Source of the DNA: Nereocystis luetkeana
Lineage: Eukaryota > Sar > Phaeophyceae > Laminariales > Laminariaceae
Assembly: GCA_031213475.1 (NCBI GenBank)
Contig: JARUPZ010000010.1
Span: forward strand, 5,434,776 to 5,498,775
DNA: 64,000 nucleotides
Reading direction: 5' to 3'
Part shown: positions 1-63,240 of the stretch, piece by piece
Numbering within the stretch: the stretch's first letter is position 1
Layout of the letters: every line of letters begins with the position of its first letter
The notes under the pieces: model-generated
What the model saw: the letters and a program-made list of their open reading frames with translations, nothing else
Database searches by the model: none
What the model was told of the DNA's origin: nothing
Program-made: the position numbers and the translations under genes

Positions 1-560
1 GTGGTTTCGTCGATCGGTTTCAACGATCTGCTCATCTCCGCAGTGGCGTCTGCCGCGGCAATAGCGAGAGAGGCAAACCGTTAGAACCCTGTTAAAGGGG
101 CCCACGTGATGCTTCGTACATATAGATATATACCAGGTATATATATATATATAATCCCAAGTACCTGGTATATTAATTGGCGAGATGAACAAAATCACAG
201 CAGTAAAAACGTGGCCTAATCAACCAACCAACCTTGTTCGGGTGTGAGAGCGATCAGTCTGTTCACACCGTGCGAGTAGAGTATCATGGTGCCGGCGTGT
301 TGTGCAACAACTTGATGTGCGCTTCCGATATACCACGAACTACACTGCTGTACCCAGTACCTGGTCTAGGTGTTAACATCATGCCCCAACCAGGCAAGCG
401 CCGACTCGAGTCGTAGCGCAAGCCTGTATAGCAAGTAACACAACTGGTCCCCCCCTCCCCCCCGAAGAAAAAAAGCACAGAGCAGGACCTGGAAAAAACT
501 ATCAATAACAGATGAACCCCCACCTCCAACCTCCAGCCATGTTAAACCTCGCCAATACCG
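1..560. other. Anonymous sequence
   Basis: I see no convincing gene. The stretch holds a short (TA)n run near 140-155 flanked by TACCAGGTA and TACCTGGTA, and a C-rich patch near 450. Open frames on both strands are short and overlap one another. Confidence 0.4.
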
Positions 561-860
561 GGGAGGGGGGGGGGGGGTGTACTCGATAGGAGAGATGTAC
601 TCGATCTCATGCATGGCTGTAGCCGTATGACCATAGACCCTCGCATCCCTACAATGCCGGGACGGAGCATGTCGGGTTTTCACCGACCAGGCAGACATTG
701 CTTGCACCAAGGCGCGAAGCGCCGTGAGGTGTCTGGCGAGTCGCATGAAGGGTGAGCTGCATCCTACTAAGAACCGCTTTTGAGGCGGACTTGCATATGG
801 ACGACAGCTTCAATGAGTTGATTTAATTTCCGGTGTAGGCATTTCCAGAGACAGCAATAC
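561..860 (+). repeat. Poly-G repeat F, copy 1
   Basis: A dispersed repeat that opens with a run of G, then TACTCGAT, a CATGCATG block, TGACCATAGACCCTCGCATC, GACGGAGCA and a 3' part ending in TTTAATTTCCGGTGTAGGCA. The same order recurs at 49684-49962 and inverted at 48331-48627, with partial copies at 48629-48755 and 62355-62565. No inverted terminal repeats or target duplication are visible. The class is unknown. Confidence 0.7.
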
Positions 861-880
861 TGACGGGGGGGAGGGTATAA

Positions 881-1053
881 CCCTTTTAGTACCGCAGTCC
901 CGTTTTGGGGACAAACTATTTAGAATTTGAGCGGTTTGTCCCCAAAACGGGACTGCAGCCTTAACCCTTTCAGAGCCGCAGTCCCGATTTGGGGACAAAC
1001 TACTTGAAATTTGATTGGATTGTCCCCAAAATGAGACTGCAGTTCTAAAAGGG
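881..1053. mobile_element. MITE B, two tandem copies (piggyBac-like)
   Basis: Two near-palindromic units of about 80-90 bp share a TTAA at 961-964. Another TTAA follows at 1054-1057. Each begins CCCTTT(T)AG and carries GCAGTCCCGTTTTGGGGAC inverted against itself. TTAA targets with ends starting CCC are typical of the piggyBac superfamily. These copies have no coding capacity, so assignment to that superfamily is an inference from the ends and the target. Confidence 0.8.
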
Positions 1054-1059
1054 TTAAAA

Positions 1060-1330
1060 GGGTCATGAGCGCTGACTTTCGCACAGGGGGTATACGATAG
1101 TTTTCAGCGCTCGATTTTCCCACAAGGGGAACGTTAAGGTTGCCAATAATATCGAACAACATTCAAGGAGATTTTTTTCGGAAAACATCTGGTTGAGAGC
1201 CTCCCGAACAATACAATGTTCCGACTTTAGTTAGCACCCTTGCTGCCGTTCGTTGTTGAGAAAACGAGCACTGAGTGAGCTGAAAAGCGATCGAACCGCT
1301 GCGTTTAACGAACTCAACGCTCTTGATCCT
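1060..1330 (-). repeat. Repeat M, copy without MITE
   Basis: The reverse complement aligns with 16748-17090. Both contain AAGAGCGTTGAGTTCG, TCAGTGCTCGTTTTCTC, a TTTTCCGAAAA block and AAAATCGAGCGCT in the same order. The copy at 16.7 kb has a MITE B at a point where this copy has none, so this copy represents the empty site. No coding content is seen. Confidence 0.6.
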
Positions 1331-1416
1331 TTCAAGACCGCGGTCCAGCTCCGGAAACAAACAACTCAAACACGAAGTAGTTTGTCCCCAAAACGAGACT
1401 GAGGCCCCAAAATGGT
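1327..1416. mobile_element. MITE B, diverged copy
   Basis: A weak match to the MITE B palindrome: CCTTTCAAGACCGCGGTCC on the left and GTTTGTCCCCAAAACGAGACT on the right. The TTAA duplication is no longer visible, so this is probably an old copy. Confidence 0.5.
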
Positions 1417-1966
1417 CAAGACACGTACTCACTCATGTCATGCGCGGTCGTGCTTCGTACGATCATATACATAGAAACATTATTCTCTCAAGTCTCAAGT
1501 CCTCGCACGATTGCAACGATCGCAGGGTCGTCGTTGTGGAGAAAACAAACTCACAGGCTATGCCGTTGCCGGTAAAGCGATCGCCACGCGCGGTGCCTCT
1601 TGCCCCGGAGACACTCGAACAGAGTCATCAGCATCGCGCCAGCCACGAGGCTCATGATCGCCGTCACCTGCGTGTGCACGACGAAACGGAGAAACAACAT
1701 ATTTTTTCTTCTAAAAAATCGTTTGGATTCGCAATTTGCGCTCCGTTGAAAAACTACAAGAAAAGAGAAAGAAAAAAAAAAACATATCCCACACTAATTC
1801 TAAGTAAATAGCGAGCACTTTCCGGCCGCCTATACCGCATCGATGAATCATGATCTACAGTCAGTAGGACTAAGTATAGAAATCGGGGAATTTGGTGTGG
1901 CCCGCGTGTGGTTCCAGTGTTGTGAGAAGGGAATTGAAAAAAAAAAACAGACATAACGTTGAGCAC
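1417..1966. other. Anonymous sequence
   Basis: No recognisable gene or repeat. A 162-codon open frame on the plus strand has low-complexity, charged composition and no family resemblance, and I do not call it. Confidence 0.35.
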
Positions 1967-1968
1967 TA

Positions 1969-2073
1969 TGACGGGGGACCATAGTTAATAGGACATATGG
2001 TTTACATAAAAACCTATATATTTAACAATTTTTGCTAACAAAATTTGGTCCTATTAACTATGGTCCCCCGTAA
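1969..2073. mobile_element. MITE A, 105 bp (TA-inserting, mariner-like)
   Basis: The ends are inverted: TGACGGGGGACCATAG on the left and CTATGGTCCCCCGTAA on the right, with TAGGACC and GGTCCTA further in. A TA precedes the element. About fifteen relatives lie in the window, most of 103-111 bp and flanked by TA. TA target duplication with short inverted ends fits non-autonomous Tc1/mariner (IS630) elements. No transposase is present. Confidence 0.8.
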
Positions 2074-2549
2074 CAGAACCCTATAAAACCCCAAAATCCC
2101 GATCCCGTTCCTGCCCACCATTGACGAGAAGAAGGTTAAACCTGATACCTGGTGTATGCTTTACGACGAAGGTCCAGTCCAAAACACGAGCACGTTTTCA
2201 TGTTATTTCTTTATACTCGCTTCTTTCGCCCTTGCTGCTACCCGCTGCTGCTGCCGATGCTGCTCCTACCGCTGCTGCTAATAACCATTTTTTCTCACTG
2301 CAAGAATGATATCACACTGTTTCTACATAAGTAAAGCACTTCGGATCCAAAACGTGCAGACAACGGACAGACCATCGATCCGCACTTCGAGATCTAGCTA
2401 CTAATAGATATTTCAGAGATAATGAAATATTTCAGGGCAGCCACTGTACTGGTATTACATAGATACCTTCCTGACCTGAGTGATCTACTGCCGTACTAGC
2501 TCATGTTGACGGGTTCAAACCATACAACACACTATGACCTACTGCTAGT

Positions 2550-2800: not shown

Positions 2801-3008
2801 GTTCGGGGGACTAGAGTAAATAGGACCAAATCTTGCTAGAAAAAATAGGGAAATATGTACCTGGTAGTTTTTTTGCGTGTACCGTAGGTCCTATTTAACC
2901 CCTTTAGAACCGCAGTCCCGTTTTGGGGACAAACTACTAGAAATTTGACTGGTTTGTCCCCAAAACGGGAGACTGCGGTTCTAAAAGGGTGAACATGGTC
3001 CCTCGTAA
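2801..3008. mobile_element. MITE A split by a MITE B insertion
   Basis: The left part runs from TCGGGGGACTAGAGTAAATAG to GGTCCTATTTA. It is interrupted at 2899-2989 by MITE B and resumes as ACATGGTCCCTCGTAA. A TACCTGGTA lies at about 2857, inside the MITE A body, where most copies have a plain TA. The nesting shows that B moved after this A copy was in place. Confidence 0.85.
2899..2989. mobile_element. MITE B inside MITE A
   Basis: A 91-bp near-palindrome beginning CCCCTTTAGAACCGCAGTCC and ending in its inverse. TTAA precedes it (2895-2898) and TGAA, a one-base variant, follows it. Removing it and one duplicated TTAA restores a normal MITE A right arm. Confidence 0.85.
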
Positions 3009-3395: not shown

Positions 3396-3496
3396 TTACG
3401 GGGGACCTTAGTAGATAGGACCTACGGCAAACACAAAAACCTACCAGGGTGGGTATATATTTACCTTTTTTTACTGACAATATTTGTCCCCCGTGA
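3396..3496. mobile_element. MITE A with shortened right arm
   Basis: It starts TTACGGGGGACC and ends CCCCCGTGA before TA. The inner part of the right arm (GGTCCTATTTACTATGG in other copies) is missing. The body contains an inserted CCAGGGTGGGTA after a TA. Confidence 0.7.
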
Positions 3497-3703: not shown

Positions 3704-3875
3704 GATTTACTGTAGCCCAAAAGGTCCAAAAAAACAAAAAAACGACCAAACGTCCATCAAAGGTCCAACAGTGTAAAAAATACGTGTCTGTCCGCCCTGT
3801 GCTGCTATTAATAGTCGCTGTTTTTTTTTTTCTAAAACCATTTATTTATCATCACTTTTTTACTTCCCAGCTTAA

Positions 3876-3965
3876 CCCCTTTAGAACCGCAGTCCCGTTT
3901 GGGGACAAAACTACTTGAAGTTTGACTGGTTTGTCCCCACATATGGGACTGCGGTTCTAAAAGGG
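3876..3965. mobile_element. MITE B, 90 bp, intact TTAA duplication
   Basis: Perfect TTAA repeats at 3872-3875 and 3966-3969 flank a 90-bp palindrome with ends CCCCTTTAGAACCGC and its inverse. This is one of the cleanest copies. Confidence 0.88.
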
Positions 3966-4206
3966 TTAACTCGTAGGAGGTTTCACCCTCAGCCATGGTC
4001 ACAGATGTCGTGCCCTTCCCCCCCCCCGGTACGTCCCTTCCTTTTTATCGCGCATAGGGTTCATTCAGCATTCCCATTGCCCCTCGATTTTCATCGAAAG
4101 TTGCTATTGATATTAATACTATTAATAATAACTCACGCTCTCGCACTTCCCATCCCTCATTTTTTACGGAAGAAAAAGTATTTTACCAGGTACGTATATA
4201 CGTACG

Positions 4207-5430: not shown

Positions 5431-5462
<32 letters not shown>

Positions 5463-8572: not shown

Positions 8573-8683
8573 TTACGGGGGCCCGTAGTAAATAGGACCA
8601 AATATTGATAGTAAAATAGATAAATACATACCTGGTAGGTTTTTGTATGTTCCGTAGGTCTTATTAACTACGGTCCCCCGTAT
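8573..8683. mobile_element. MITE A with an internal TACCTGGTA
   Basis: TA flanks both ends (8571-8572 and 8684-8685), with inverted TTACGGGGG and CCCCCGTAT. At about 8630 the body reads ACATACCTGGTAGGTTTTTG. The copy at 55.5 kb reads ACATAGGTTTTTG, a 7-bp difference located at a TA. Confidence 0.85.
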
Positions 8684-8689: not shown

Positions 8690-9470
8690 TGTCACTGGGA
8701 CCCGCGTGCAGAGCAACCCCTCTGCGCGCTATGCTATTCAATTCTCCATCTCGATATTTTGTACTCCCCTCTAAAATAATGCCTTACCATAACACTTGAA
8801 ACCTTTCTTCTATAACGCGTCACCGTGTCCCCATACCCCACACAATAATTGCACAACAACACAATTCTAGGAAAAGCGCTACGAACGTAAAAGCCATAGA
8901 CAGGCAAAAAAACTACCTGGTGGGTCGTTTCATGATCTACAGTTAGTGTAGTAATATCAACTTTTTGGCCCGTCAAGACCGCCTTAGGCTTACTATAAAT
9001 CGTATGCTGGCTATAGTGTGGGGATAGCCTTGACGATTTTCAAGGGCAACATGTATCAAGATAGAGCCATGTGACGCTCGGTCGCAGGCAGTACCGCACT
9101 GCTTAACACTTTTCCATGATATGTTGAGGATGCATACCGCGACTCGTATATACACTATTGATAGTCGAGTACCTGGTAGTCTGTAAACACTACTCACTGC
9201 TGTACTGCTGTACGTTGAGTTGTTGCAGTTAGATCATCCATACGCATCCATATATACATGACGTACGTATCTAGTACAGGAGGTACGGGTATAAAACATC
9301 GAAACCGCTTGGGATTCCGCGAGATGAAGGTTGAGATTCAGGTCCAGATGAAGGTCGCCTTTTTTAGTCAAAATTGCCGAAGACATCACAGCTTGCCTTC
9401 TATCAACCGCTCTTCTTCAAGAACAGATCGGCACTGCTTTTTCGGAGGCAATCTCCATGACCGCCAATCA
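8690..9470. other. Anonymous sequence
   Basis: No recognisable feature beyond a TACCTGGTA near 9171 and an ACTATTGATAGT variant just before it. Confidence 0.35.
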
Positions 9471-9473
9471 CTA

Positions 9474-9581
9474 TTACGGGGGACCATAGTAAATAGGACC
9501 TCGTACGGTACAGACAAAAGCCTAAACATTTGCGTATTTTTAAAACCAATATTAGGTCCTATTTATTACGGTCCCCCGTCA
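9474..9581. mobile_element. MITE A, 108 bp
   Basis: TA on both sides (9472-9473 and 9582-9583), left end TTACGGGGGACCATAGTAAA, right end TATTACGGTCCCCCGTCA. Confidence 0.85.
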
Positions 9582-9610
9582 TAGTACTCACCAGGTACTC
9601 TAATCCTTTT

Positions 9611-9648: not shown

Positions 9649-10205
9649 ACATTAAACCGTTCTTTCTACCCGTCGACATCCCGCACAACCAGTGTTCGTG
9701 CCGATTCTTCAATCCTAGAAGAGACACAAGTTCTGTGGTCACAAAGCTACGCCACAGAGATACTACGTTGCCACGTACCAGTATGCAGTAAGCACCGCAG
9801 TGGGCAATGCAATGCCATGTCATTATGGTTTAATGTGAAGAACACACACACACTATTAATAGATACGACAGGCACGACATATACATTCTATGAAATAGAG
9901 AAACGAAAGGAAAAATCAGAGAGAAAAACAACAACAAAGTAGACAAATCGAAAGAGAAAAAGAAAAAAAATGAAAGCAAAGACAAAGAGAAACAACGGAA
10001 GAAACAAACTGTCGTGCCCCCCCCCGCAGGCGAGGTGGCCAACACTCGAAAAAGAACGAGCGGGAAAAAAAAAGAAAAAAATAACAAAAACACCACTGCT
10101 TGAGTAAGACAAAGAACCAAGGAAAAAAAAGGGGGAAATAACAGACAGACCAAAGCCCAAAGCACCCTCCGGTGGCGGCAGCAGTTTGTGGTACGAGTAG
10201 TATAG
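9649..10205 (+). repeat. Repeat I, copy 1
   Basis: It begins TTAAACCGTTCTTTCTACCC, passes through GCCGATTCTTCAATCCTAGA and GTGGGCAATGCAATGCCATG, then a purine-rich 250-bp half and a CAAAGCACCCTCC block. Relatives lie at 11209-11565 and 11857-12122 (minus) and at 12122-12990 and 14420-14725 (plus). No terminal repeats are defined and the class is unknown. This copy has TTAATA inserted at a TA near 9852 and CCAGTA at a TA near 9777. Confidence 0.65.
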
Positions 10206-11208: not shown

Positions 11209-11565
11209 CCCCCTGCGGGAAGGCACGACATCAGTTTTTCTTTCTTCTTTATTTTTCCCTTTTTCTCGGCCGAATTGTTTTCCACATTTTCTTCGTTTGC
11301 TTTTGTTGTCTGTTTTGTCCCTTTCATAGAATATGTATGTAGTGCCTGCAATATCCTGTATGACGACATGGCATTGCATGGTCTACTGCTGCTGTTGTGC
11401 TTACTGCATACCAGGTACATAACAATGTAGTATCTCGGTGGCGTAGTTTTGTCACCACATACTGGTAACTTGGACGCATCTCTCATCTCACTAGGATTGA
11501 AGAATCGGCACGGACACTGGTTGTGCTGGATGTCGACGGGTAGAAAGAACGGTTTAACCTTATAA
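11209..11565 (-). repeat. Repeat I, copy 2
   Basis: The inverse of family I, ending GGTAGAAAGAACGGTTTA. It has TACCAGGTA at 11407 within the segment that reads CACGTATGCAG (no insertion) in the 11.9-kb copy. Confidence 0.6.
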
Positions 11566-11856: not shown

Positions 11857-12122
11857 TTTTTTCTACCCGTCGACATCCAGCACAACTCTTCGATTGTTTC
11901 CTTTCGTTTCTCTATTTCATAGAATGTGTGTATGTCGTGCCTGTCGTATCTAGTATGATAACATGGCATTGCATTGCCCACTGCTGTGCTTACTGCATAC
12001 GTGGCAACGTAGTATTCTGTGGCGTAGCTCTCCACAGAACTTGTATCTCTTCTATTAATAGGATTGAAGAATCGGCACGGACACTGGTTGTGCTGGATGT
12101 CGACGGGTAGAAAGAACGGTTT
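11857..12122 (-). repeat. Repeat I, copy 3
   Basis: Inverse copy containing TTCTATTAATAGGATTG. Four relatives have the same site without TTAATA (CTAGGATTG, or CTAGA in the 12.1-kb copy). At CACGTATGCAG it represents the empty state for the TACCWGGTA insertions seen in other copies. Confidence 0.65.
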
Positions 12123-14419: not shown

Positions 14420-14725
14420 TGTCTTCACATGAAACCGTTCTTTCTACCCGTTGACATCCCCCACAACCAGTGTCCGTGCCGATTCTTCAATCCTAGAAGA
14501 GATACAAGTTCTGTGGTCACGAAGCTACGCCACAGAGATACTCGTTGCCACGTACCAGGTACCTGGTATGCAGTACAAGCACAGCAGTGGGCAATGCAAT
14601 GCCATGCCATCATACTAGTACGACAGGCACGACATACACATTCTATGAAATAGATAAACGAAGGGAAACAATCAAAGAGAAAACAAAAACAAAGAAGACG
14701 AAATCGAAAAAAAAAAAAAAACTGT
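14420..14725 (+). repeat. Repeat I, copy 5
   Basis: It aligns with copy 1 from AAACCGTTCTTTCTACCCG onward. At the site reading CACGTATGCAG in the 11.9-kb copy it has two consecutive 7-bp insertions, giving TACCAGGTACCTGGTA. Confidence 0.65.
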
Positions 14726-14912
14726 ACGCAAATTAGTAGAGGGAAACCTACCTACGTCAAATGAGACGTAATTTAGGCGGTAAAAACATGAAACAACACA
14801 CACATACCTGGTAATACACACTAGTGGCAACACACACTATCACAACCCAACACTCGTCTATATAATACCAGTACCTGGAATGAAACCTTAAAACATCCTA
14901 TTATGAATAATA

Positions 14913-15875: not shown

Positions 15876-16239
15876 CAACCCTCCGTCCCCCTCCTGCCCC
15901 CGTAGTCTCAAAGGAGCGAGAGAGTTGTACTGCTGCTGTTGATAATATAGATGCCCCAGCAAGTCGTCCACTCCTCAAAAGGCGACGCCTTCCACGTCCG
16001 AGCAATACCTATCTTGGGTCGGTTGTCCCGCTCCTCCCCTGCTCGCTTGACTGCCGGCCTGACGGAGTTTTTTTTTCGTTGTGCAGGCTCCTGTACATTT
16101 TGTTGCAACAAATAAATATGACACCATAACACAAGCAACAGCAGGAACAGCAACAGGAGCAACCGCAGCGGCAGAAACTAGAATCAAGCGCAGCGTGTAA
16201 ACATATACCGGTATTAAGCATGTACGAATCTTAGCAAGA

Positions 16240-17090: not shown

Positions 17091-19640
17091 CTCTTTACTC
17101 GTACCCAACACACGAGTAATACTGCTGGTACGATCAACACTGCTGCTGTCGTTGTTCACACATTCCCACTGCTTTAATAGTTCCCTCGGGGGTAAAAATT
17201 GCAACGCACTAAACTCAGGTATCCAGGTAAGAGTAGGTTGCCCGCAAAACCGTGGGTGCAGGCTGACATCTCCGTCGGCAGTTGATTTCTGGAATGATGG
17301 TACGCTGTGTGCTCTGTGCTCTGCTGAACCTCAAGTAAAAAGTTTTTTATGTCGTTTTGACGTACTGTTGATACCGGCACGTATCATGCCACTATATATG
17401 TCCGTAAATGTAACCACATTTCGTTTACTATTATTAACTAAAACGTTCCTTATATTTATGAACAATAGTTGTTGTATATATATACCCGTATACCCTGTGC
17501 TGCCGCCGCTGGTGCTGTACGGGGATACATACGTACTGCGTAAGAAGTACTCCTGCTGTGTACTGGTACGAACCAGGCCCGGAGCACATTTGTGGGCATA
17601 TACCCGGTACCAGGTACATGTTGCACCATACGGCCGTTTTTATTTGCGTGTTCGTACTGCTGTGTGTATGCACGAGAGTTGTTTCGTTTGTGTTGCAGTC
17701 ACGACACAAACGAAGTTTTTGAACACAAACAAACAAACAAACCGCCAACCGCGTTGAAAACGAAAAAAAGTACGCACGACGGGCAGGAGCAGGCACGGGG
17801 AGTAGCAGCAGCGGCAGGAGCAGAGAAGCAGCAGAAACGGCAGCCAGTGAAAGGGCACGGTCCGAAATGAAACACGGCCTGGAAGAAGGGTGCAGGATAT
17901 ATATATAGGGTCTGAAACCCGAGCTAAAGCAGACGCACTCACGGCTGCGTGTGACTGCTGTGCTGGCTGGTGGCGTCGAAAACGAAAAAGAAGAAAAATC
18001 GGGACGGGAGGTGCGACTGGTGTATGGCGGGGTGGGGCAGACTACCTGCATTTTCAGTGTCCTGTCATACCAGGTACAGACGGCAGATAACCAACCCACA
18101 CTATTTTATCTTGAATACGAAAAAAGGCAAGAAAAAAAAAAAAACGCACCAGGTGGGCTGCACCAGGAGGAGCCGCAAACAGCAACAACTCGAAAGCAAT
18201 AAAACCTTTCAACCTTCCAAACATGCCGGCACGTGTTGCTTGATTGACGTGTACACGAAGGTTCTGTGGGCTTGCTTCTAAGGACGAAGGGTCTTGTATC
18301 CATCGCAAAAACCAGCGCAACAGGCAAACCGAGCAGTGATCTCTTATCTGTGTGCTGAGAACAAGCAAACGACGCCCCGGCAGCTCAACAATCGGTCCAA
18401 TCGTCTGTTGGTTGTTTGCATTATCTTGTCCCTCGAAACACGAAAGGAATACAGCGAGCAAGCCCGATCGTTTCGGAGCGCCCCCTGCTCTACGCCCTTC
18501 GTTATCCCGACTCGCCGGCTCACCGACCACTCGGCTCGGGATGGGGCAGCCAGGTTTCAGGGCCCACCCGCAGCTGACGCAGAGGATGCAAACGGTCACT
18601 CCAAACAAAGGTAGACACAACGGTGGGGCAGCAGCAGCAGCACGCACAGCAATGCGTAGGACTCCCAATCCCATATACGAGAGCAACGGACTGGATGGAG
18701 TCAGTCAGGGAATATACTTCTTACACCAGCCCGCGACAGGAAAATCTCCTGCGCGTTCATCCCTACTCAGCAGTGCAACCAACTCCCACTTCACCTGCTG
18801 TCTGAAGCGTTCCAAGGAAGCCCCCGGCGGAGGGCAGCTCCCTACTATGTAGCTCGTAAAACCTCCTAAACGGACAATTCCATGAACGTCGACATCGAAA
18901 CGCCTTAATTTTATCATTGAAATCCGTGGATGCGGGACAATAAGCAAAGCTGTCCCGTGAGCCGTGAGGTGTAAAATTGCCGACGATAAAATGTGTCCAC
19001 GACGATACGACGATACGCCGATGCACGTGCACACTGCATGCCGGGAGTGACAGAGCCTAAGTCGCTAGCATAGACGCGCGGAAACTCGCTGAGTGGCTTT
19101 GGAAACGAGTCGGGCCAGTCTGGTATCACCCACACATATGTCATGTTCCGTACTTCCAGCTTGAAAGTCTACAGGCAGTCGTTCGTAAATATAAGAAACC
19201 TTTTTATATAAATATAAATATCAAAACGGTCGTAATATTTCCGGACAAAGAGGTATGATATACGGTACCAGGTACGTAGCAAGAGACAAACACGTACCAG
19301 GTACCTGGTATGAAGGAAGCAACAACAGCCGTTGCAACTTCGACGATACCAAGTCGGGGCCCAGCGAACAACGAACGTCGAAGACTAAAGCACACAAGAA
19401 AAAAACACATCACTACAACGTACGATGGACAAACAAACGTGGGCAATACCATGAGGGCCGCTGTGCTGCCGAAGCGCCCGTTGGCGAGATCAAACCCATA
19501 ATATCTCTGGGCCTGTAACTAAAAAGCACTCCGTACCTGGCACGAGAGAGTTGAGACGTTGACGCACACCCCGAGACAAACAAACATGATCCATAGTTGT
19601 TTCTTTGGGGATAACACAGTCACGGCGTACACTATTTTAT
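17091..19640. other. Anonymous 2.5-kb stretch
   Basis: No gene family recognised. A 210-codon minus frame at 18054-18686 and a 166-codon plus frame overlapping it are both open, so neither is convincing. The minus one has Ala/Gly-rich and Phe-rich patches. TACCAGGTA-type motifs occur at 17609, 18068, 19265 and 19296. A host gene with short exons cannot be excluded. Confidence 0.3.
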
Positions 19641-19710
19641 ACCAGTACCTGGTACCAGATACTGCTGATGCCGCTGTCTCGTCTTATCTTTGGCGCTTAT
19701 GACGTACCAG

Positions 19711-24775: not shown

Positions 24776-24933
24776 TACCAGGTACCAGGTACCAGGTATA
24801 TGATAAAGAATGTATAGTCTACGAGTGGGTGGGGCATGTATTCTCTGCTGCGACCGCTTGCTGATCATGATGATGAAGGGTGGTGTATTTGCTTCTTTAA
24901 TGCACGTCCCGTTGAGGCTTTACTTATATACTA
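24776..24933. repeat. (TACCAGG)n cluster
   Basis: GTACCAGGTACCAGGTACCAGGTA at 24777-24800 is three CCAGG units separated by TA, directly after the LINE 5' end. The rest is anonymous. Confidence 0.8.
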
Positions 24934-25052
24934 ATACGGGGGGCCATATAGTAAGTACGACCAAATATTGTTAATGAAAATATGTACTGGTAAATATTAT
25001 GAAGGTTTTTAGGTCCTACCTGGTATTCACTACCAGGTATGGTCCCCCGAAA
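24934..25052. mobile_element. MITE A with two TACCWGGTA insertions
   Basis: TA flanks (24932-24933 and 25053-25054). The right arm reads GGTCC-TACCTGGTA-TTCAC-TACCAGGTA-TGGTCC. Other copies read GGTCCTATTTACTATGGTCC. Both TA sites of the arm have gained seven bases. Confidence 0.88.
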
Positions 25053-25658
25053 TATGGCAAAGACTTTCTCGTAGAAGAGAGGTGTCGGAAGTAAAGAACG
25101 GAATCTAAGACTGACTGCCACAGGTACGAGTCTGGAGTGTGCACGTCGTCGAGCTCCGGAAGAAGAGGAGAACAACTTTTAATATCGTGCGTCAGTACGT
25201 CACGGCGCAGGACGCACAGAGTACGAGTACTTACTACTGTAGGCTAAAAGAAGATACTCAGAGCTCCTCGTATTGTAACTGTAATAATGTACCAGGTATG
25301 TGTCTGCAGCTGCTGCGAACACTCGGACAGGTGAACAACGGCGGGGGCTGGTTGTGTACGTATACTGTGTGCTCTATGTATGTATGTACAAGGCGCTTCG
25401 CTCCGCGGGCGGCCTACGCCGCCCGCTACGCTCGCTCAGGAAGGAAAAAAGTACATCAAATTATGCGAAGCGAACAGAGGTCCACGATTGAGTTTAGTGT
25501 TTTCAAGGATCGTAATTGCAAACCGGCGACTTGATAATGCCAAGAGTCCCGCCGCCATGCTTCAGGAAAAAACAGCTCCGACGTCAGCTTGGATGCGACA
25601 TATACGCTTCGCGTCGCGGATGTCGTACGTACGTACATACACCCCAGGTAGGGTACTA

Positions 25659-29275: not shown

Positions 29276-30213
29276 ACCGGTCAAAAAGAAGAAAATAAAC
29301 AAATCAATGCCTACTGGAAAAAATCGCACAGAAGAGCTTCTTCTCTCTCAGCCTCGTACGCCGCCCGCCCCTCTCGCGACCACCTCGCTACCGATTCGGT
29401 CCGGGTAAAGCTTTTATCACTCTCTGCCACAATCAGCCCCGTCGCCCGCCCCGCGTGAAGCCCGGTGCTCACCGTGGCCGTCGTTCACCAGCTCGATAAC
29501 GTTGGTGTTCAAACTGCACACCTCCCTCTTTCAACTTCAGCATGGTCGCAAAAATAAGCACAGCTTGAATATTCTCTTGCCCTCCCGAACGACCTTTATA
29601 AATTCGTACATACTCTATCAACAATCATAAATCGAAGCCAGACGAAGCCCGTTCATGCATCCCTCGTGTCTCGAGGCACACGCGACGCCTAGGCACGAAA
29701 GCGGCGACCGCGCTCCTTGCAACCCCCCCTCTACCCGCCAGCACCCGCTGGCACTCGCGACGGTGCCGGGTCCTCCCGCGATGCCGTGGTCGGAGAACAC
29801 GCACGCACACGAAACGAAAAAAGAAAAAAGGAAGAAAGGACCGAGAAAACAAAGAACTGCTGGAAAGGTCCGGCAAGTAATGAAAGGAGGCGGTTTGGAA
29901 GTGGGAGCTCTGAGAGGCCAGGGATGCACCAACCGAGCACGCTCAGGGGTTGTGATCTAAGTATGTAGTTCTATAGACAATCTACTGTGTAGTAGATGCT
30001 ATTAATACCACTGCGTGTATGTTCTATACATCTTCCTCGTATATACCGAAGCGGGCCGTGTATTTTTTACCTCGTACTCGTACTCGTATATCGAACCCGT
30101 GCATTTTTCCAGAAGATCCTTCGTCGCAGGAATGCCCGGCGACTCCGAATGGACAGCAGTAGTAGTAGTAGTATTAATACCTGGTACTTCGTACCAGGTA
30201 TAACATGGTGTTA

Positions 30214-41099: not shown

Positions 41100-41170
41100 A
41101 CTAACTACAAGGGTAAAGTAGTAGTCGTAGTAGTATAGTAGTAGTAGAAGTAGTAACTGAATACCAGGTA
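41100..41170. repeat. AGT/GTA-rich microsatellite
   Basis: Irregular GTAGTAGTAG repetition ending in TACCAGGTA. Confidence 0.7.
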
Positions 41171-41983: not shown

Positions 41984-42900
41984 GTGCGAGGTTTGCTGTT
42001 GTGCTTCTTTCACAGATCGTGCCGTTCAGGTTATACTCGTGGGCATATGGCACGCAGCGAATCCTCGGGAGCTCTATTTGAAAATGTTTGTTTTTACGAA
42101 TACTAATCTAGTACTCGACGAGCACAGAAGAAACAGCAGGCCTCGACACTCGACACATCAGATCTCAGAGATCACATCATGTAATACGAACATGCATACT
42201 TTGACCAGCTGCCGGCAGTCTATTACTACTGCTGTATGTACGTGTGCTGCTGTCGCCTGCTTCTGTCGGCAGAGCTACAAGTACTAACATGCAACACGCA
42301 GCAGCAGTCGTAGTGCTGCGGAGCTCTGTGGTAAATGTGGTACGAAATACGATTACGAAATTCCTGCTGGTGCGAACGAGGTGGAAGTACAGACACCCAT
42401 CAACATATACTCGTACTGCTGTAGATCTACGAGTAGCAAATACCGGTGTCATGGTGCATACTGCTCACGTGTGTATACCTGGTACCCTGGTACACCTGGT
42501 ATTACTGTTACAGTCGACTACCAGTATTAAATACCAGTCCTCGTTCTCTGTTGTTAATACTGCTAATAATAACGAATACCTTGTACATCCACGATGTTGA
42601 CTTCCTCGTAATAAAAGCAGCATCGGGTGTGATAATACGTCACGTACGATCCTGGAGTTCACTATCTATTCGCTCGCTGCTCACGAATGCGTGCACTCTG
42701 CCGCTGTTTCAAGGTCTGGATATCATTCTCACGTATGAATACCGCCGTGCTTTGTGCAGCAGCAGTTACGCAGTCAATAAGTGGACGATGCTGGCTTCCG
42801 ACGCACTGCTCACTCGATCGCTCGACCCCGGTATCTACCTGCTCATGATATGATAGATAAATACTCGTACAGGAGTGTATAGCGCGGACAGATTTCCGTT
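41984..42900. other. Anonymous sequence, possible intron
   Basis: Follows the exon candidate. Contains TACCTGGTA and TACACCTGGTA clusters at 42476-42502. No exon recognised. Confidence 0.3.
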
Positions 42901-43803: not shown

Positions 43804-43892
43804 CCCTTTTAGGACCGCAGTCCCGTTTCGGGGACAAATTACTTAGAATTTGACTGGTTTGTCCCCGAAACGGGACTGCGGTTCTAACGGGG
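43804..43892. mobile_element. MITE B, 89 bp, TTAA both sides
   Basis: TTAA at 43800-43803 and 43893-43896. Arms CCCTTTTAGGACCGCAGTCC and GGACTGCGGTTCTAACGGGG. A near-perfect palindrome. Confidence 0.88.
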
Positions 43893-44972: not shown

Positions 44973-45630
44973 ACGAGGCACGGGCGTGTGACCCAACGCA
45001 ACCCCTACCACCACGACTAACCACAACCCGTGGCCCCCACCTGGTGGCAAACCGGACCAGAAATGGGCCAGAAACGCGCCTGAGAGACGATTCTATTTAT
45101 TTTCGGCGTGCGGACTATTTGCGGACCACGGTCCCGAGCTGCGGACCATGAGTTAGTTACCTCTCTGACCAATCGTAAGGAGGTACGTGCAAACACCTTG
45201 AAAATTACGCCCTCGTACGTAAAATGTATAATCCGGAGAAAGTCGTTGCGACAAAAAAGAAGAAATATAGTATTATCATGAGTCAGTTTCCGTGTCGTCG
45301 AATACGAAGAGAGTAAAAACCAAGGGAACGGAAAACGAACTAGCGGTTTGGGATTTTTGTCAGAAAAAAATATACCAGGTATATATATATTTAATTCGGG
45401 GGGACGAAATATGAAGTCAATAGGTCTAACAACGTGTCCGGACGGAATTTTCGCGACGGTTTTTCACTTCCTTCCTGTTGGCCAGGACTGAAAAATCTTG
45501 CTTTTATAAATAACCGCGTGACAACTTGCGAGCACAGACATAACCGACTTTGTGTCTACTAGAACGGGAGGTAGCATACGAAGCGTCAAGCTAGCTGCTC
45601 GTGCACTGGTATCGTATCGAGATAGAAAGA
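44973..45630. other. Anonymous sequence
   Basis: GCGGACTATTTGCGGACCACGG and CTGCGGACCATG form a loose repeat near 45110-45150. No gene recognised. Confidence 0.3.
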
Positions 45631-47073: not shown

Positions 47074-48330
47074 CTATATATATATAGAGAGAGAGAAGGA
47101 CTGAGCGAAGACAGTAAATGGGAGGGAAACATATAAAATATAATGTATAAAATATAATGTAGCACACCGGCAGCGCCACATATGGCCCACCCTTTCGGTC
47201 TTTCCAGAGAGGCTACCGCGCTAGCCTTTGGGCAGCTTCCGTTAGGCTGCGCGCGCCTTCGAAAGGCAGCCCTGTCGCGCTGGGTTCACTTGTGGAGCGT
47301 ATCGGGGCGAGAGCCTTGCCGCCCCCCACCGAAGAAGCTACGAGTGCCCAATCGTACCGATCATGAGAATCACGCGGCGCAACCTCTGCGCCATGTTGGG
47401 GCTGCGCAGGGAGATGCCCCAAAGGCGAGGCACACATGGGACGATAGCTTGCGGTAGCGCTTGGTGCGGCCAGCCGTTTGCCACTGCTAGTACCGTATCA
47501 TAGCACGGGGTGATCAGGGTAACACACCCCCTGGAGCGAACGCCCAATCTGATTTTATCGCGACAGCCGGGAGAGTGTTAAGATCAAGCAAGAGTGCAAG
47601 CGCTGAGCGATGCGTGTTTTTTACGGAAATACCTCGAGGAGACCTTTCCAAAGCTGCTGCTGTAGCCTAAATTTTTGTGTATGCTCTCGTGGGTTTGGAA
47701 ACAATTCGGGCCGGAAGTTCTTCCTCCGACTGGGTGTGTTATCTTTGCCTGTTGAAGAGCAGCTTTTTGAGAGTTTTGCGTTGTCCCCCCGCGCGAACGC
47801 TCGCCCCCCACCTCACGGGATGTGAATGTGCTGCCAAACAACTTCCTCCCGCTGTCGAAAGCTTTATGTATGCTGTGGTTGTTGTGTTGTTACGCGGTGT
47901 GTAGCAGGCATGCGTTATGAAATAGGCCCCGTTTCATGGTACGGTATCTAAAAGGGGTATTGGGACCCATTGCGGCATATTCGGGACCTTTTGCAGCATG
48001 AATGTTTTTTTTCGTCCTATCCAAGGTCCCTTATGGTTTTCGGTCTGACTGTTACATTTTTTTTGTGGCAGATGGGGCACGTCCTTAGTTGGGTTGGCGT
48101 CGGTTGGCAACGACACTGTGAAACATGCCGCTTACTACGTGAGCTAGACAACCAGGGTGCCGTTTTTTTTTGTTTTTTCGCGGTCGTTCACAGCTCGCGA
48201 TCAAGTTAGATGATTTTTGTGCGGGGTGGAGAGCTTTTACTCCGCTCAGGGGAAATTATCGCATCCCATACCAGGTACCAGGTACCTGGTAGTGTTTATG
48301 GTACGGCACCCACGAGGCAGTTACATACCT
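47074..48330. other. Anonymous sequence
   Basis: The first 500 bp are GC-rich with frames open on both strands and no domain. A repeat L relative lies at 47688-47745. TACCAGGTACCAGGTACCTGGTA lies at 48269-48291. Confidence 0.3.
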
Positions 48331-50385: not shown

Positions 50386-51498
50386 TCGCAGTTTGCGTTT
50401 TAGATTATGTTGATTCGTCCTTCTGGCGTTACGTGGTCAGGACCTTTTGGTTGTTTGTTGGTCATGTTGTTTTGTTGACCTATGACACCCTGATCGCTCA
50501 GAGTACGTACTGGATGCCCTGCGCTGCGCTTTCCTAGTTTCTGCTGTCGGCGTGTGCTTTGTTACTATGCAGTATATATTTTTCATGAAGGTGCCCTGTC
50601 AGTGTTTCGTCTGGTATCCGTGGCATATATTGCGGTGGGACGGGGGCTTCAAGAAATCTGCGCGGAAAACTGCACAGAAAGCTGCACAGAAAGCTGTGGA
50701 GGTTTGTTTCTTGTTTTTTCCGACTGCGTCGGTGCTGGTTGGGGTCAGTACTCAGCCGTGCGTTTTGTTCCGTGCTGTGTGTGTTTTTTGCGGTGGGTTT
50801 GGGGCGTGCGTGCGTGCGTGCGCGTGTGGGGTGTACGTGCGCGCGCACGTGTCTTGTTTCTTTTTGTTTGTCCTGTGCTTCCGTGTGCTGTACGAGTAGA
50901 GTTTTTTTTGTCCGCGTGGTGTGCGATGTATGCTCGTCAAACGCTTTCGCGCCGCTGGTGTACCTTGTTTTTGTATTTTTGAGTGTTTGTTGGTGTCCGG
51001 GTCGATCGCTGGCCGGAAGTATTGTTGTATCGTTTACCCTCTAGTCTCCACACAACTACTGCGTGGGGGAAACTTCTTGTTCCCGTGGCCAGAACCGGCC
51101 TAAATGCCATACCATCCGAGAACAAAAGCACCGACGAATTGCACACGATACCTGGTACTTAGCATGCATGTGCGTTCTGCTCCAACGCGTAATGTGTGCA
51201 GTATGTGTACTAACACCAGTAGCTGTTCTATGTTACGTGCAAGCCTTGTTGCACAGATCGTGGGCATGTCTACTAATACTTGTAGTACCGAGGAACGGTG
51301 TACGTGATACCTGGTAGGCAATGGCCACCATGTGCAACAGGTCGTCTTTTAGGTCTTGAAAAATCTTTTTCATATTCCCCTTTTCCCATCGACCCCCCCG
51401 CCCCCTCCCGGTCCTCCTTCTCGATAACTACAGTAGTACCGGCACAGCAGTACGTGTCGTTTCATCTTACTCCGTCGCGCCAGCTCTGCAGCTGCTGT

Positions 51499-57775: not shown

Positions 57776-58901
57776 TTTGCATTTGCCGAAACTGATAATG
57801 CCTCGCAGAGAACGGCCTTTCTGCGGCAGGTGCTGTAGGTCTTCTTGTGTATAGGGCTCTACTACAATAGGGCGTGGGGCGAAGAAGAGCTACTAAGTAT
57901 TGCGCCTGGTAGCTGTGGGTGGACCTACTGCACGTCAAGGTTTTGCGTGAGTAGGTCGAGACTGCGCCATTCAATCCCGGCACTTCGTTTTGTTGCGAGA
58001 AAAACAGTTGAAAAAACAGCCTCTACCATAGTACCGGGCAGTGAAAACTAACTTTCACCTGGGATCATGCTCCTCATGCAAACATCAACGCTGGTACATA
58101 CGTAGTTGTGCCAGAATAAAATAATTGAGATTCGCGTTTCAATCGCGGTAAGACTTGAGCCAGAAACATCATATGATACTGCACTACCTGGTACCGGTAT
58201 TAAATAAGCTATTCAAGGGCTCTAGACCAGCTACAGCGAGTGGTAGAGCCCCATCGGTTAGAGCCTGGGAACTGTAAGGCTTATCATACCTGGTAGTTGC
58301 TTTCCCGTGGAGAAACAGTCCCGACGTTGTATGCAAGCCGAACCACCACAAAAAATGAGTTGCTCTGGCGTCGCTGAAACTCGTATATCCCCCCCCCCCC
58401 GAATCGTCTACCACTCCATCCACTACCATGAGGCTTTTACCGGTACATACTATTAATACCGTAAAACTGTCTGTCGTGGCTACTGACTTGGTCCTGGCGG
58501 CTCAAGCCCAGCGCCAAAACCAGGTGCTGAACCACGGTCACTCTGAAATCGGACTTCTGCCCAATTCATCACGCCCCCCTCGCCCCCCCTCCTCATCAAA
58601 AAGCCTTACAATCCTTAGACAGCAAAACTAAGCTAAGCTTAGCCAACATGTGACCGGGGTTGGACGTCCATGGATCTTTGTCAACAACCGCGGCCACGTT
58701 TTTGGGGGCAACAACTTGGATTCAGAGTGGGAAGAAGAACAACAGGGGAAAACCACACATGGCTGAGCTCTATACCCAGACCTACAGCAAGCAGAAAAAA
58801 TAGACGGCTAAAACAATTGACAGCCCCCAAGCCACACTCACTCGTCAACATCACGCCTCCTCTCCTCGACCCTCACCGCGCCGGTCTCCCACCAAAACCC
58901 C

Positions 58902-59485: not shown

Positions 59486-61030
59486 ATGCAGTGCGCTCGC
59501 TTGCTCAACCCAAGACATCGCGGGCGAATAGCCGTCTGCTCCACTCTTTTTTCGGGGCACTATTTCCAGCGATAGGGGCATGGAGGGGGGGAGAGCGGTT
59601 TTAATCCCCACTGCTGCACAACAGCTGTCGCCGTACAATAGCCGTCGGACAACAGTCGTTGGACGGTACATGGCCGTTGCCTCGCAAGTTGGCCACACTT
59701 TCCGCGCATCCATCCCCTGCCCCCCCCCCCTGTCCGTCTCCTCTTGCTTGTGACAAACAAAAACTGTGCAGAAAAACTCGACCAGGATCCCAAACGGCCC
59801 GGACAACCTGCAAGCGGCGCGTTGTACTTAATGAAAAAAAAGCAAAAACATTCCTCTACCCCCCGCCGCCCTCCCCGCCCCCCCCTCCCCTCGCGGAAGC
59901 GATTACGGTATAACAAGCAGGATGTAACACGACTCCTGGGGTAAATTTCCAAGCCGACTTCTTGTCAACGGGGAGCGTACAAACTCCAATCGATGCGTAC
60001 ATGCGAGATATTTCCCTCGCCACTTCGTTTTCATGTGTCTTGGAGAAAATCGGTCCGGAAAACCATCCCAGGAGGTTGTGTTATCTTAAGCGTGTTGATA
60101 CGGCACACTTTTTGCAAAACAAAAACCGGAAGCTCTCAAGAAAATACGAGCCGCATCACCAGACATGCCAGAAAAAATCGCGGACATCAAACAGTCACGC
60201 CTCACCGAACGGGCGCTTTTGGTAGGGCACCCCCCTCTTTGCGGCAAAAGAACCACAGCAGAGCAACACATCAGTGGCAAAAGCGCCAAGGCACCTACTG
60301 TAGAGAGAGACTGGCGTCAATTCACTGCCTGCCCGCTTCTGCTTTTCGTGCCTCTTGTATCACACAGCTCCTTCTTGTTTTCGCCGCAAATCTGTACCTG
60401 GTACTGTTTTTGATAGCGCTACACGAGTGGCGGTCTGTTAACTCTTAATACACCCTTCGGAACTGTACCCACATTTTTGGGAAAATTCACTTAGAATTAA
60501 AGTTGGATTTTTTTTGCAGCGGTAAACGGGTGAAAAAGCCGCGATCATCTGGAACTCCCTCCCCCCCTCTTCCTCCTCCCCTTTTCGCTCCTCGACACAG
60601 CAGCACCACGATAACATCTAGCTACATAATCCACCGCAAGATCTTATCCCCATCGCCGAGTGCAAAAGTACGGGCGGGAGAGACACACAAGCGCGGGGCG
60701 ATAATTTGCTCGGAAAGTTCCGGAAACAAAAAATGGTCACGACTTGACGCGGTAATTTTCTCCGAGAATTGCGGAAACAAAAAATCCAAAAAACGCCAAC
60801 ACAACCTCAACAGGAGGGGCGAGGTGGGATGGACGCGGAGCAGGGGGGGGGGGGGGGGGGATAGTCTTGGTCTTGCAGCTAGCGACTTCAAAGCGTGATT
60901 ATAACTTCTTCTGGGTAGCCCCTGTGCACGAGGTAGTCCGTCACTTTGCGGGTGAAAAACTCCGGGCCTGTGGGGGTTGGAAGTAGACGCGGCAGGAACA
61001 GGAGGTGAAGTAGGGGAAGGGGCAGGAGGA
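59486..61030. other. Anonymous sequence
   Basis: Poly-C and poly-G tracts near 59725, 59880 and 60845. A repeat L relative lies at 59945-60097. No supported gene. Confidence 0.3.
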
Positions 61031-61034
61031 GCAG

Positions 61035-61175
61035 GAGGGGGGAGGGTGGGCGCACTCAGTTGCTGCTTGACTTAGGGCTTTGACTATTGACCGCACATCT
61101 CTTTCGCGACGGAGCCCCGTTCCCAATCCTATTAGAGACACCTCCAACATTTGGGGGCTCCTATATATTTATTTT
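61035..61175 (+). repeat. Poly-G repeat G, copy 5
   Basis: GGGCGCACTCAGTTGCTGC, TGACTATTGACCGCACATCT, GCGACGGAGCCCCGTTCCC, then AGAGACACCTCCAACATTTG as in copy 3. Confidence 0.65.
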
Positions 61176-61659
61176 TCGGGGGGGGGGGGGGGGGTGGAGG
61201 TAAAAAAAAAAAAAACACGTGACGCCGGCCCAAAACAAAACGCAGAACACTGCGGCAAGCAGCAGCAGCAGCAACATCCCAGACGAAAACAAAAACACAG
61301 ACGAACAAAACGAAGGACGTAACGAACGGCATCTCAGCTAAAAGACGCGACGTTGCATCGACGTGGGATTTCGATCGTATCCACATGTTTGCAGCCCTAC
61401 AACAACAGGTGCAATACCGGGGGCAAACGAAGCATACACAGCATGTCATGTCCGAACAAGTTTAGCGCGGGATGAAAAACATAAAAAAAAATATCGCGCA
61501 ACGGCAAGGGCAGCAAGAATACAAAATCGGCATTCCACGCGGACGGTTTTAGGGCTCGCTAGTTGGCCGGTTCGTTGGTCGCTCACCCCCAACACTGCTA
61601 CCGCAATGAGACAGACCGGGAAACAGAACGCACAGCAAACACCCCGCGAGCATTCCCCA

Positions 61660-62200
61660 CATCTGCTACAGCCGCGAGGGGGGTGATTTTGAAGCCAGGT
61701 GCCGACGTCGACAATCCTACGTGACCAATTCTCCTGAAACAATGAAACACGGACGAAGAACAAAACAAAACTAACCAGGGAGATACTGCGAACCCGTGGT
61801 AAAAAAATACTTGGAACAGGAAAGCCTGCAGCAGCAGAGCACCCCCTCTCCCCTCCCCATGCATGATATCGAGGACCCCCCCCCCCCCCCCCAAACCTGC
61901 CACAGTAGCTAGGGTCCAGCCTTGAGGTCAGTCGCGGACATCGATAATTATACGTATTTTTTTTCAACGAAACTGCAACAGAGAAACAAAACAAACGGGG
62001 CAGAGCTTGCGTACGCAGTAAAATATACCGGTATAAGGAACAAACAGGAAAACAAAAAAACTGAATACTGAGTAGCATACGACAATGGCCATGCATGATA
62101 TCGAGTACCCCCTCCCCCCCCCCCGCCCCCCCCCCTTCCCCATTTGCCACAGCCGCGAGGGCACCGATCGTCAACTCAGGCGCTGACGTAACCAGGTTAA
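61660..62200 (-). repeat. Three short LAAVA-encoding blocks with poly-G
   Basis: On the minus strand, blocks near 61720-61670, 61930-61895 and 62195-62155 read SAPGFKITPLAAVA, SATDLKAGP then LATVAG, and SAPELTIGALAAVA. Each is preceded by a pyrimidine-rich stretch and AG. The second and third are followed by a G run and TCGATATCATGCATGG, the start of repeat F. They resemble the end of the exon candidate at 62574-62768. Confidence 0.5.
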
Positions 62201-62354
62201 AAATAAATAAATAACATATTAATAACAAAACAAATCGTGAACCCAGGATAGAAACAATACATGGAACAACCAGAAAAAAAAAAAAGACAAGAAGAAGAGC
62301 AACTCCTCTCTCTCCTCCCCGACTCCTTCGCCATCCTCCCCCCCCCCCACCTCC

Positions 62355-62565
62355 CACCCTTCACACAACTCGCCAAAAACCTCGCGTTCCGCTTCTTCCC
62401 GCGTGCTGCGACAAGCAAGGTCTACCAGATCGGTGAAAATCCGACGTGCTCCGTCCCGGCATTGTAGGAATGCGAGGGGTCTATAGCTACTCCACTACGG
62501 CCGTGCATGACTTATGTACACCCAACGTCCTCTTCCCCCCCCCTCCCCCGTCTCCCCCCCCCGTC
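62355..62565 (-). repeat. Poly-G repeat F, partial
   Basis: GATCGGTGAAAATCCGACGTG, CTCCGTCCCGGCATTGTAGG, CGGCCGTGCATGAC, TGTACACCC and C-rich text, the inverse of the 0.6-kb copy's 5' half. Confidence 0.6.
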
Positions 62566-62573
62566 CTCTTCAC

Positions 62574-62768
62574 CTGCAACAGCCGCGAGTGTGCCGATCT
62601 TAAAGTCAGGCGCGGCCTCTCGCACGTTAGCGTTGGCGCCCAGCTGGTGCCCGAAGAGGTCCCGCTCAACGATGCAGCTGACGTCCAGTTTGCGGTGGTT
62701 GCGGAAAAAAGCCTCCTCCAGTTCTCCGTACAGCGCGAAGTCTTCCGCCTTTTCGTTCAGCCAGAGGA
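62574..62768 (-). CDS. Possible internal exon of an unknown gene
   Basis: The minus strand has a pyrimidine-rich tract (CTTGCTTGTTTTTCCTC) before GGAAG, then about 64 codons: VLWLNEKAEDFALYGELEEA, FFRNHRKLDVSCIVERDLFG, HQLGANANVREAAPDFKIGT, LAAVA. It ends at GCAG|GTGAAG. The phases at its two ends are 2 and 1. The text is amphipathic and protein-like, clearly better than the other frames here. Family unknown. A run of G and repeat F follow in the presumed intron. Confidence 0.42.
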
Positions 62769-63240
62769 CTTCCGCCGCGGAATAAAAAGAGGAAAAACAA
62801 GCAAGAAAGCAACACCAGAAACGAATATTGAATCAGGAGAAATGTACACGAGGTATACATACCTGGTGGGTACCCATAGGAAAAAATAGCAAAAAATGAG
62901 TGAAAAAGGAACGGTAAATATGCAAAAAAAACAAAAAACGGCGGCATGAAAAAAGGCGACCAGTACATTGGCATCGACTGCATCAACAACCGCTTTCCTG
63001 CAGTTTAAAAGGTTCAATGCATATTTCAATTTCAATTTGATACCACTACGAGTATTCATTTCTAGTTTCGTTTTCATTTTAAATCACCATTTCCAGCGTT
63101 GTCTTCCACCCCATTTTCCAGTTTTTCCTGATTTTGAGTGCCCCTGCATTTAAATGTTTACCTTGAGGCTGTTTGCTACCAGGTATGCGGTTCGGTTTCG
63201 AACTTCAGACTTGTATTTTTCGAACCCGAATATGAAAGCA

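Follow-up and report, generated by a model that had tools for sequence, protein, structure and literature searches.

The nine-mer TACCWGGTA, which occurs 36 times in a 64,000-nt stretch of the genome of the kelp Nereocystis luetkeana (contig JARUPZ010000010.1, positions 5,434,776 to 5,498,775; hereafter the window), is probably the footprint left on excision by a cut-and-paste transposon whose insertion at TA duplicates the TA. In the window, 19 copies have A and 17 have T as the middle base, against a mean of 0.22 and a maximum of 2 copies in 100 shuffles preserving the dinucleotide composition. A preliminary description of the window, drawn from the sequence alone, had called the motif over-represented, put the chance expectation at about two copies and proposed a test on shuffled sequence; the enrichment is confirmed, with chance lying well below that figure, and each of the 18 motif positions quoted there has a match within 5 bp. 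In the whole assembly (465,085,209 bp, 1,987 contigs) we counted 182,395 sites, about one per 2.5 kb, as compared to 1,744 for the motif read backwards as a control.

Finer analyses relied on sampled genomic stretches (numbered L001 and up). The 282,054-bp sample excludes L005 and L006, which overlap; the 316,763-bp sample (34 loci), used for the paralogue, enrichment, flank and half-site analyses, excludes L005, L006, L008, L029 and L030; and the flank-signature classifier was run on 334,167 bp, that is, on the latter sample plus L039 and L041–L043. One pattern count omitted all of L001–L008. Loci L001–L004, L007 and L008 were chosen for containing the motif, which gives it a slight excess in the sample, whereas the genome-wide counts are free of this bias. 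In the 316,763-bp sample, the CCAGG class was found between two TAs 131 times (3.0 expected).

For the paralogue analysis, the 60-bp flanks of each scar were joined around a single TA and relatives of the joined sequence were sought in the sample. Among 118 sites with full 60-bp flanks (arrays collapsed), 14 had an alignable paralogue; exactly one TA stood at the junction for 11 of the 14, the only empty copies had a mutated TA for two, and one site had neither. With a single bare TA in a paralogue of 11 of the 14 alignable sites, TACCWGGTA is a gain of 7 bp at TA. The 14 do not represent as many independent families, since one family of miniature inverted-repeat transposable elements (MITEs) contains several of them. 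The preliminary description had the motif replacing one TA in every paralogue pair. This is too strong as a rule, as some paralogues gain 6 bp (TACCAGTA, TACTGGTA) or 12 bp (TACCAGGGTGGGTA) at the homologous TA and some pairs show other small differences there. Thus, several copies of one MITE have a filled TA at the same position (2858 and 8629 of the window, L014 and L026, with the 12-bp form at 3442), and a second repeat has a TA that is empty in some of its copies but carries a double scar at 14553, TACCAGTA at 9776 and TACTGGTA in L018.

The flanks of the scars are otherwise unrelated, yet they share a palindromic preference, TA|Y....TW (120 sites, both sides merged). A is depleted at position +1 (0.05 versus 0.19 in the background), T is favoured at position +6 (0.51 versus 0.26), as is A or T at position +7 (0.80 versus 0.53), and the profile is flat past position nine. 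We read this shared signature as the probable target preference of a transposase. It was further used to classify forms of the type TA-X-TA (X no longer than 10 nt, at least five sites). Besides the training class CCAGG/CCTGG (z = 18.3), the signature was carried by CCAG (z = 7.0, n = 37), CCGG (5.9, n = 18), CCAGGG (4.0, n = 11), CCCGGG (3.2, n = 5) and CCATGG (2.8, n = 3), and was absent from CCSGG (0.2, n = 14), CCA and CCG (1.1 each), CC (0.3) and CAG (−2.1, n = 117).

Of the signature-bearing forms, the following are also enriched in the 316,763-bp sample: CCAG was found 36 times (13.5 expected), CCGG 17 times (4.5) and CCAGGG 11 times (0.7); CCGGG was seen 14 times (2.1 expected) but lacks the signature. 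The form TACCGGTA had been proposed as a variant of the motif without its middle base. Its four quoted places were found within 3 bp (16206, 39304, 58192 and 62026), with an additional one at 58438, and its flanks support its being a related form, for which a slip of that join by one step is the better reading. Genome-wide, TACCWGGGTA occurs 13,000 times (771 for the control), and among 100 matches listed of these 13,000 there were 93 with A and 7 with T, 8 of the 93 coming from a single tandem array. The polarity of the 6-nt form is therefore fixed, with the ends reading CCA... On contig C1 (1304145–1308362) there are eight TACCAGGGTA sites, seven of which are regularly spaced at 528 bp, where the scar seems to have been amplified along with its tandem unit. 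In L012 (3400–5200), short repeats of the type AGCTGCGCAGCTAGCTG...CAGACAGCTATT form an inverted array with a palindromic core, which carries several different TA gains, namely TACCTGGTA, TACCAGGGTA, TACCTCGTA and TACCTAGACGCAGGTA.

An element with the ends TA-CCAG(G)...(C)CTGG-TA, cut by its transposase 4 or 5 nt inside these ends, could have produced this set of forms. The two identical 3′ overhangs would pair by C:G and G:C around an A:A mismatch, and resolution of the mismatch to A or T would yield TACCAGGTA or TACCTGGTA, while pairing slipped by one base would yield the 4-nt forms CCAG/CTGG and CCGG or the 6-nt forms CCAGGG/CCCTGG. A rather unlikely alternative is an element with unlike ends, TA-CCA...GGG-TA, and a stagger of 3 nt, as is the case for mariner and Sleeping Beauty; complete fill-in would then give CCAGGG, and CCAGG and CCAG would arise when one or two bases are lost. 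Such an element accounts for the polarity of the 6-nt form, for CCGG as CC plus GG and for the scarcity of longer forms (CCAGGTGG, CCAGGCTGG and CCAGGCCTGG were all absent from the 316,763 bp). However, it predicts CCGGG and CGGG, of which the former belongs to the CCSGG class without signature and the latter is near chance (11 versus 8.8 expected); it leaves unexplained why the loss of exactly one base should be ~14 times more common than full fill-in (182,395 versus 13,000); and it is at odds with the 8-nt form TACCAGGTGGTA, which does exist (12 among 100 matches listed of the pattern TACCAGGN{1,4}GGTA).

Some scars adjoin each other. There are 15,917 adjacent pairs genome-wide, compared to 2 in the control and to an expectation of 1,359 for equally targeted TAs. 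As each excision would leave two TAs, and the scar would resemble a fair target half-site when viewed outward, it could attract later insertions, from which 7-bp arrays would grow. When TA half-sites are ranked by score, a scar approached from its outer TA falls in the 76th–95th percentile (four octamers were scored), and T in third place raises the score. This preference for T at position +3 predicts that A-then-T neighbours should exceed T-then-A ones, and they do (4,522 versus 1,856, with the remaining 9,539 pairs equal), by a factor of 2.44 where the logo gives about 1.9; the comparison was not blind, since 14 versus 5 had already been seen among the 59 sites of a doublet listing. Growth of a 7-bp microsatellite by replication slippage would also give arrays, and it would account for a surplus of equal neighbours, ~3,161 of the 15,917 pairs (~20%) on the assumption that the choice between A and T in new scars is random. 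We attribute this surplus to slippage or duplication. As the main cause, slippage is contradicted and very improbable, although it may be kept for a minority of arrays: the middle bases differ in 6,378 of the 15,917 neighbouring pairs (40%), 104 of the 113 arrays in the 282,054-bp sample are single units, the empty alleles are bare TAs, and slippage explains neither the flank signatures nor the scattered single copies. Microsatellite-like growth, which the preliminary description had set against its own reading, is thus contradicted by the empty TA alleles and the discordant neighbours.

Selection for a protein-binding or regulatory motif would suit a sequence that is palindromic and very frequent. 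This explanation is nevertheless extremely improbable, given the fixed 7-bp gain at TA, the slip variants with shared flanks and the transition bias among the one-substitution relatives of the motif; at one copy per 2.5 kb, such sites would also impose an implausible load. The relatives themselves number ~73 above chance in 282,054 bp, beside 124 intact copies, with transitions foremost, and this excess fits the ageing of scars, because aged copies would yield such relatives. Decay would amount to roughly 6% per site, a rough figure since the CCSGG neighbours are unlike decayed scars. The scars thus seem, from their sequences, to be inherited and of mixed age, which argues against their being remade in each generation. 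Such remaking would be expected under programmed DNA elimination, in which the sequenced genome would be a processed one, with TA-bounded germline segments removed every generation and CCWGG left behind. The internal eliminated sequences of ciliates do have TA boundaries, but remade scars would be uniform, and the existence of paralogues with an empty TA likewise makes elimination a highly implausible source.

A second scar type provides a positive control. The motif CTATTAATAG, present nine times in the window (0.01 in shuffles), arises by a gain of the form TA → TA-TTAA-TA: among 78 TATTAATA sites, 16 had an alignable paralogue, with an exact empty TA for 10, an empty site with mutated TA for one and neither for five. 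Here a candidate source is visible, an abundant ~105-bp MITE with TTACGGGGGACC ends that sits at TA and prefers TAC-TA-GTA (window 9472–9583 and 8574–8682, among others; further copies are in L009, 6306–6408, and L014, 8195–8297). Next to the 33 ends of the MITE starting TTACGGGGG, T and A were found at 27 and 31 ends, respectively, and the outward flanks have G at 20, T at 22 and A at 20 ends, matching the flank logo of the TATTAATA scars (G 0.53, T 0.55, A 0.62; 74 sites). The TTACGGGGGACC-ended MITE seems to leave the TATTAATA scars, whose TTAA would result from its ends TTA and TAA if these joined with a two-base match. Scars of excised TA elements therefore seem to accumulate in this genome, with the source visible for one of them. 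Direct pasting of short end fragments by a DDE-type or other nuclease, with the full element never present at each site, would agree with the lack of an element behind TACCWGGTA; we consider it improbable, as an element that matches the second scar type in flanks and ends is visible in the same genome, so that ordinary excision is enough. Foldback elements, mostly of 75–100 bp with ends like (TTA)ACCCTTTTAGAACCGCAGTCCCG, were also noted (window 878–1056, 2905–2983, 3873–3968 and 43810–43886; L013, 378–472; L022, 8651–8751) and are possibly MITEs of the TTAA type.

The Sleeping Beauty-like TA element with CC...GG ends suggested in the preliminary description is supported as far as the gain at bare TA and the CC...GG ends are concerned, and the mismatch logic it invoked may well apply; neither the element nor its transposase was found. 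No TA-flanked element with such ends came up in the 282,054-bp sample in a search of TA-flanked inverted repeats up to 1.5 kb, of recurrent boundaries after TA or of every TACCWGG not followed by TA, nor in relaxed inverted-repeat scans to 3 kb and 9 kb, nor among the matches listed for insertion/empty pairs of 40–9,000 bp. A genome-wide half-site screen returned 7,824 places, fewer than the 33,908 of the backwards control, so the pattern as a whole is not enriched, and none of the 100 matches listed belonged to such an element. Among 73 of these 100, picked by hand, TACCAGGC outnumbered TACCTGGC by 20 to 4, as compared to 9 versus 8 in the sample. From its absence in the sample we estimate that an element with a CCAGG end would have roughly 2,500 copies or fewer, assuming two recognisable ends per copy, and a low-copy source is possible. 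Two candidates were discarded: the stretch at L025 1164–2536 was read as two mutated scars, and a 105-bp inverted repeat in the overlapping L007 and L008 was dropped because it occupies one place in the sample, within which the search was made.

Several findings weigh against excision as the origin of TACCWGGTA, foremost the missing element, which is the main weakness of this reading and in our view not a fatal one. A 16-copy family starting TACCAGGCT was rejected as the source, being internal to a longer repeat in all three copies that were read. Among transposase profiles, PF13358 had no matches, with its control matching in 3 of 14 cases, PF01359 had none with a control that matched nowhere, and none of the 28 matches of PF03184 (11 of them in loci that were read) was linked to scars. 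In the PF03184 loci L029–L040, inverted-repeat scans, most of them covering 1.5 kb on each side, revealed no CCAGG terminal repeats, and for the long inverted duplications of L039 and L040, the eight longest arms listed per locus included no terminal repeat of the CC...GG type at TA. A stagger of 4–5 nt would be unusual among TA-inserting transposases. The flank signature is not specific by itself, since (TA)n, GGACC, CA (z = 4.8) and CG (z = 2.9) score high too, and it therefore has to be considered alongside enrichment. The signature of CTAG, which pairing slips predict, is unconvincing (z = 1.5, n = 13), and CCSGG has none although mutation of the middle base should have produced some such sites. 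Finally, the pattern TACCAGGN{1,4}GGTA occurs 6,506 times genome-wide (1,274 in the control), and 21 of the 100 matches listed were TACCAGGTAGGTA, which pairing slips do not predict and for which CC/GG alone offers no support elsewhere (z = 0.3), while the 8-nt form would require a 5+3 join. To these the surplus of equal neighbours is to be added. Under the excision reading, the source element would now be rare, too diverged to be recognized, or gone. A few dozen active copies could be enough, as neutral fixation would need only a sustained product of copy number and excision rate.

The L040 locus (contig C34, 4442000–4451800) contains a large, near-perfect inverted duplication, whose exact arms include stretches of 739, 455 and 447 bp, in a region with two opposite DDE_1 matches.

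As the searches above found neither an element ending in CCAGG nor a transposase linked to the scars, the presumed source is no more than a candidate member of the IS630-Tc1-mariner superfamily; its workings would resemble those of Sleeping Beauty or Stowaway by analogy. As in that superfamily, the target is TA and becomes duplicated (empty alleles have one TA and scars two), as judged from the scars and not from an element; footprints made of end bases between TAs fit in form, and the TTAA control fits its MITE, with the CCWGG element missing. The Sleeping Beauty footprint is TACWGTA. The scars described here likewise have TA on both sides, a short palindrome with an A/T centre between them and the same presumed mismatch logic. 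Unlike this footprint and its 3-nt stagger, they have five bases instead of three between the TAs and number 182,395, while CWG carries no flank signature here (CAG z = −2.1, n = 117) and no Sleeping Beauty-like element or transposase was found. Neither the TTAA target and seamless excision of piggyBac nor the 3-bp TWA duplication and mostly precise excision of PIF/Harbinger agrees with a TA target, of which only TA is duplicated, and a 7-bp gain that stays as a scar.

Stowaway elements of Triticeae leave footprints that are 1–4 bp pieces of the terminal repeats between TAs, in several forms per site, with reinsertion at a scar (PMC1925063); Mariner and Stowaway excision leaves element-derived overhangs, and yeast repairs the excision sites mainly by end joining (PMC4561436). 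Perfect excision accounted for 8 of 94 putative events in rice, with deletions or filler in the remaining ones (PMC4423477), and whether Sleeping Beauty footprints are mostly canonical depends on the cell type (PMC3770610). Like the footprints of the Stowaway and Osmar MITEs of grasses, the scars occur in several forms at one site; they would likewise be end fragments between TAs and sites of reinsertion. They differ in that one form dominates genome-wide and its source is unseen, whereas the grass footprints are few and varied at a single intron site. By analogy, the present case would work like Stowaway or Mariner, but the scar is another one, the stagger that it implies is longer and the scars are far more numerous. 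In the brown alga Ectocarpus, Mariner-Tc1 ranks among the most diverse groups of DNA transposons, with almost 12,000 copies, most of them non-autonomous, and a word search of the main text of that study found neither "excision" nor "footprint" (PMC12477816). Neither nine-mer occurs as a whole word in the open-licence PubMed Central papers searched, and among the papers listed no description of this scar was apparent from titles and the beginnings of abstracts, which does not imply its absence from print.

It is possible, though on balance doubtful, that the scars were written by an undescribed group of TA-targeting transposases that cut 4–5 nt inside CCAG(G) ends, left well over 200,000 scars (our own estimate, counting intact, slipped and decayed ones) through overhangs re-annealing around one central mismatch, with scar ends restoring part of the target and thereby seeding further scars, and then became rare or extinct. 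To our knowledge, excision footprints are normally observed one locus at a time. If excision is indeed their origin, these scars would be a genome-wide record of end joining on one defined overhang pair (the main join, slips by one base either way and the choice at the mismatch), and also of the insertion preference of a transposase and of the times of its activity. They would show that transposon scars can seed simple-sequence arrays and that element counts can badly underestimate past transposition, and the scar alleles would offer ready presence/absence markers.

Table 1. Scars and related features of the window (positions within the 64,000-nt stretch; strand not assigned).
Feature	Position	Evidence
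Scar TACCAGGTA	131..139	Motif match, shuffles
Scar TACCTGGTA	162..170	Motif match, shuffles
Scar TACCTGGTA in MITE copy	2858..2866	3 empty-TA alignments; others with small junction differences
Longer variant TACCAGGGTGGGTA	3442..3455	Homologous TA of the MITE family of scar 2858
Scar TACCAGGTA	4184..4192	Single alignable paralogue neither exact empty site nor filled
Scar TACCTGGTA in MITE copy	8629..8637	12 empty-TA alignments
Scar TACCTGGTA	9170..9178	Motif match, shuffles
MITE copy TA-TTACGGGGGACC...	9472..9583	Presumed source of TTAA scars
4-nt variant TACCAGTA	9776..9783	Same TA as double scar at 14553
Scar TACCAGGTA	11409..11417	2 empty-TA alignments
Second scar CTA-TTAA-TAG	12052..12061; also 3805, 9853, 13264, 13520, 14253, 19886, 20573, 28289	7 empty-TA alignments at 12052
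Double scar TACCAGGTACCTGGTA, unlike middle bases	14553..14568	4 empty-TA alignments
Scar TACCTGGTA	14805..14813	Motif match, shuffles
4-nt variant TACCGGTA	16206..16213; also 39304, 58192, 58438, 62026	Signature supports the class, not each site
Scar TACCAGGTA	17608..17616	Motif match, shuffles
Scar TACCAGGTA	18068..18076	Motif match, shuffles
Scar TACCAGGTA	19266..19274	Motif match, shuffles
Double scar TACCAGGTACCTGGTA, unlike middle bases	19295..19310	Motif match
Scar TACCTGGTA	19646..19654	Motif match, shuffles
Triple scar (A, A, A)	24776..24798	Motif match
Scar TACCTGGTA	25017..25025	Motif match, shuffles
Scar TACCAGGTA	25031..25039	Motif match, shuffles
Scar TACCAGGTA	25290..25298	Motif match, shuffles
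Scar TACCTGGTA	30178..30186	1 empty-TA alignment
Scar TACCAGGTA	30192..30200	One empty paralogue with TA mutated, one with 2-bp gain
Scar TACCAGGTA	41162..41170	Motif match, shuffles
Scar TACCTGGTA	42476..42484	Motif match, shuffles
Scar TACCAGGTA	45373..45381	Motif match, shuffles
Triple scar (A, A, T)	48269..48291	6 empty-TA alignments
Scar TACCTGGTA	51149..51157	Motif match, shuffles
Scar TACCTGGTA	51308..51316	Motif match, shuffles
Scar TACCTGGTA, then directly TACCGGTA at 58192	58185..58193	Motif match
Scar TACCTGGTA	58287..58295	Motif match, shuffles
Scar TACCTGGTA	60395..60403	Motif match, shuffles
Scar TACCAGGTA	63177..63185	Motif match, shuffles

The window also contains two reverse transcriptase reading frames (20873–24652 on the minus strand and 25927–27999 on the plus strand) that point in opposite directions and appear very similar by eye; an endonuclease domain is present in one, and the other lacks that part. 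We read them from their sequences as a probable retrotransposon of the type without long terminal repeats. More inverted similarity is found around 19887, 20574 and 28290.

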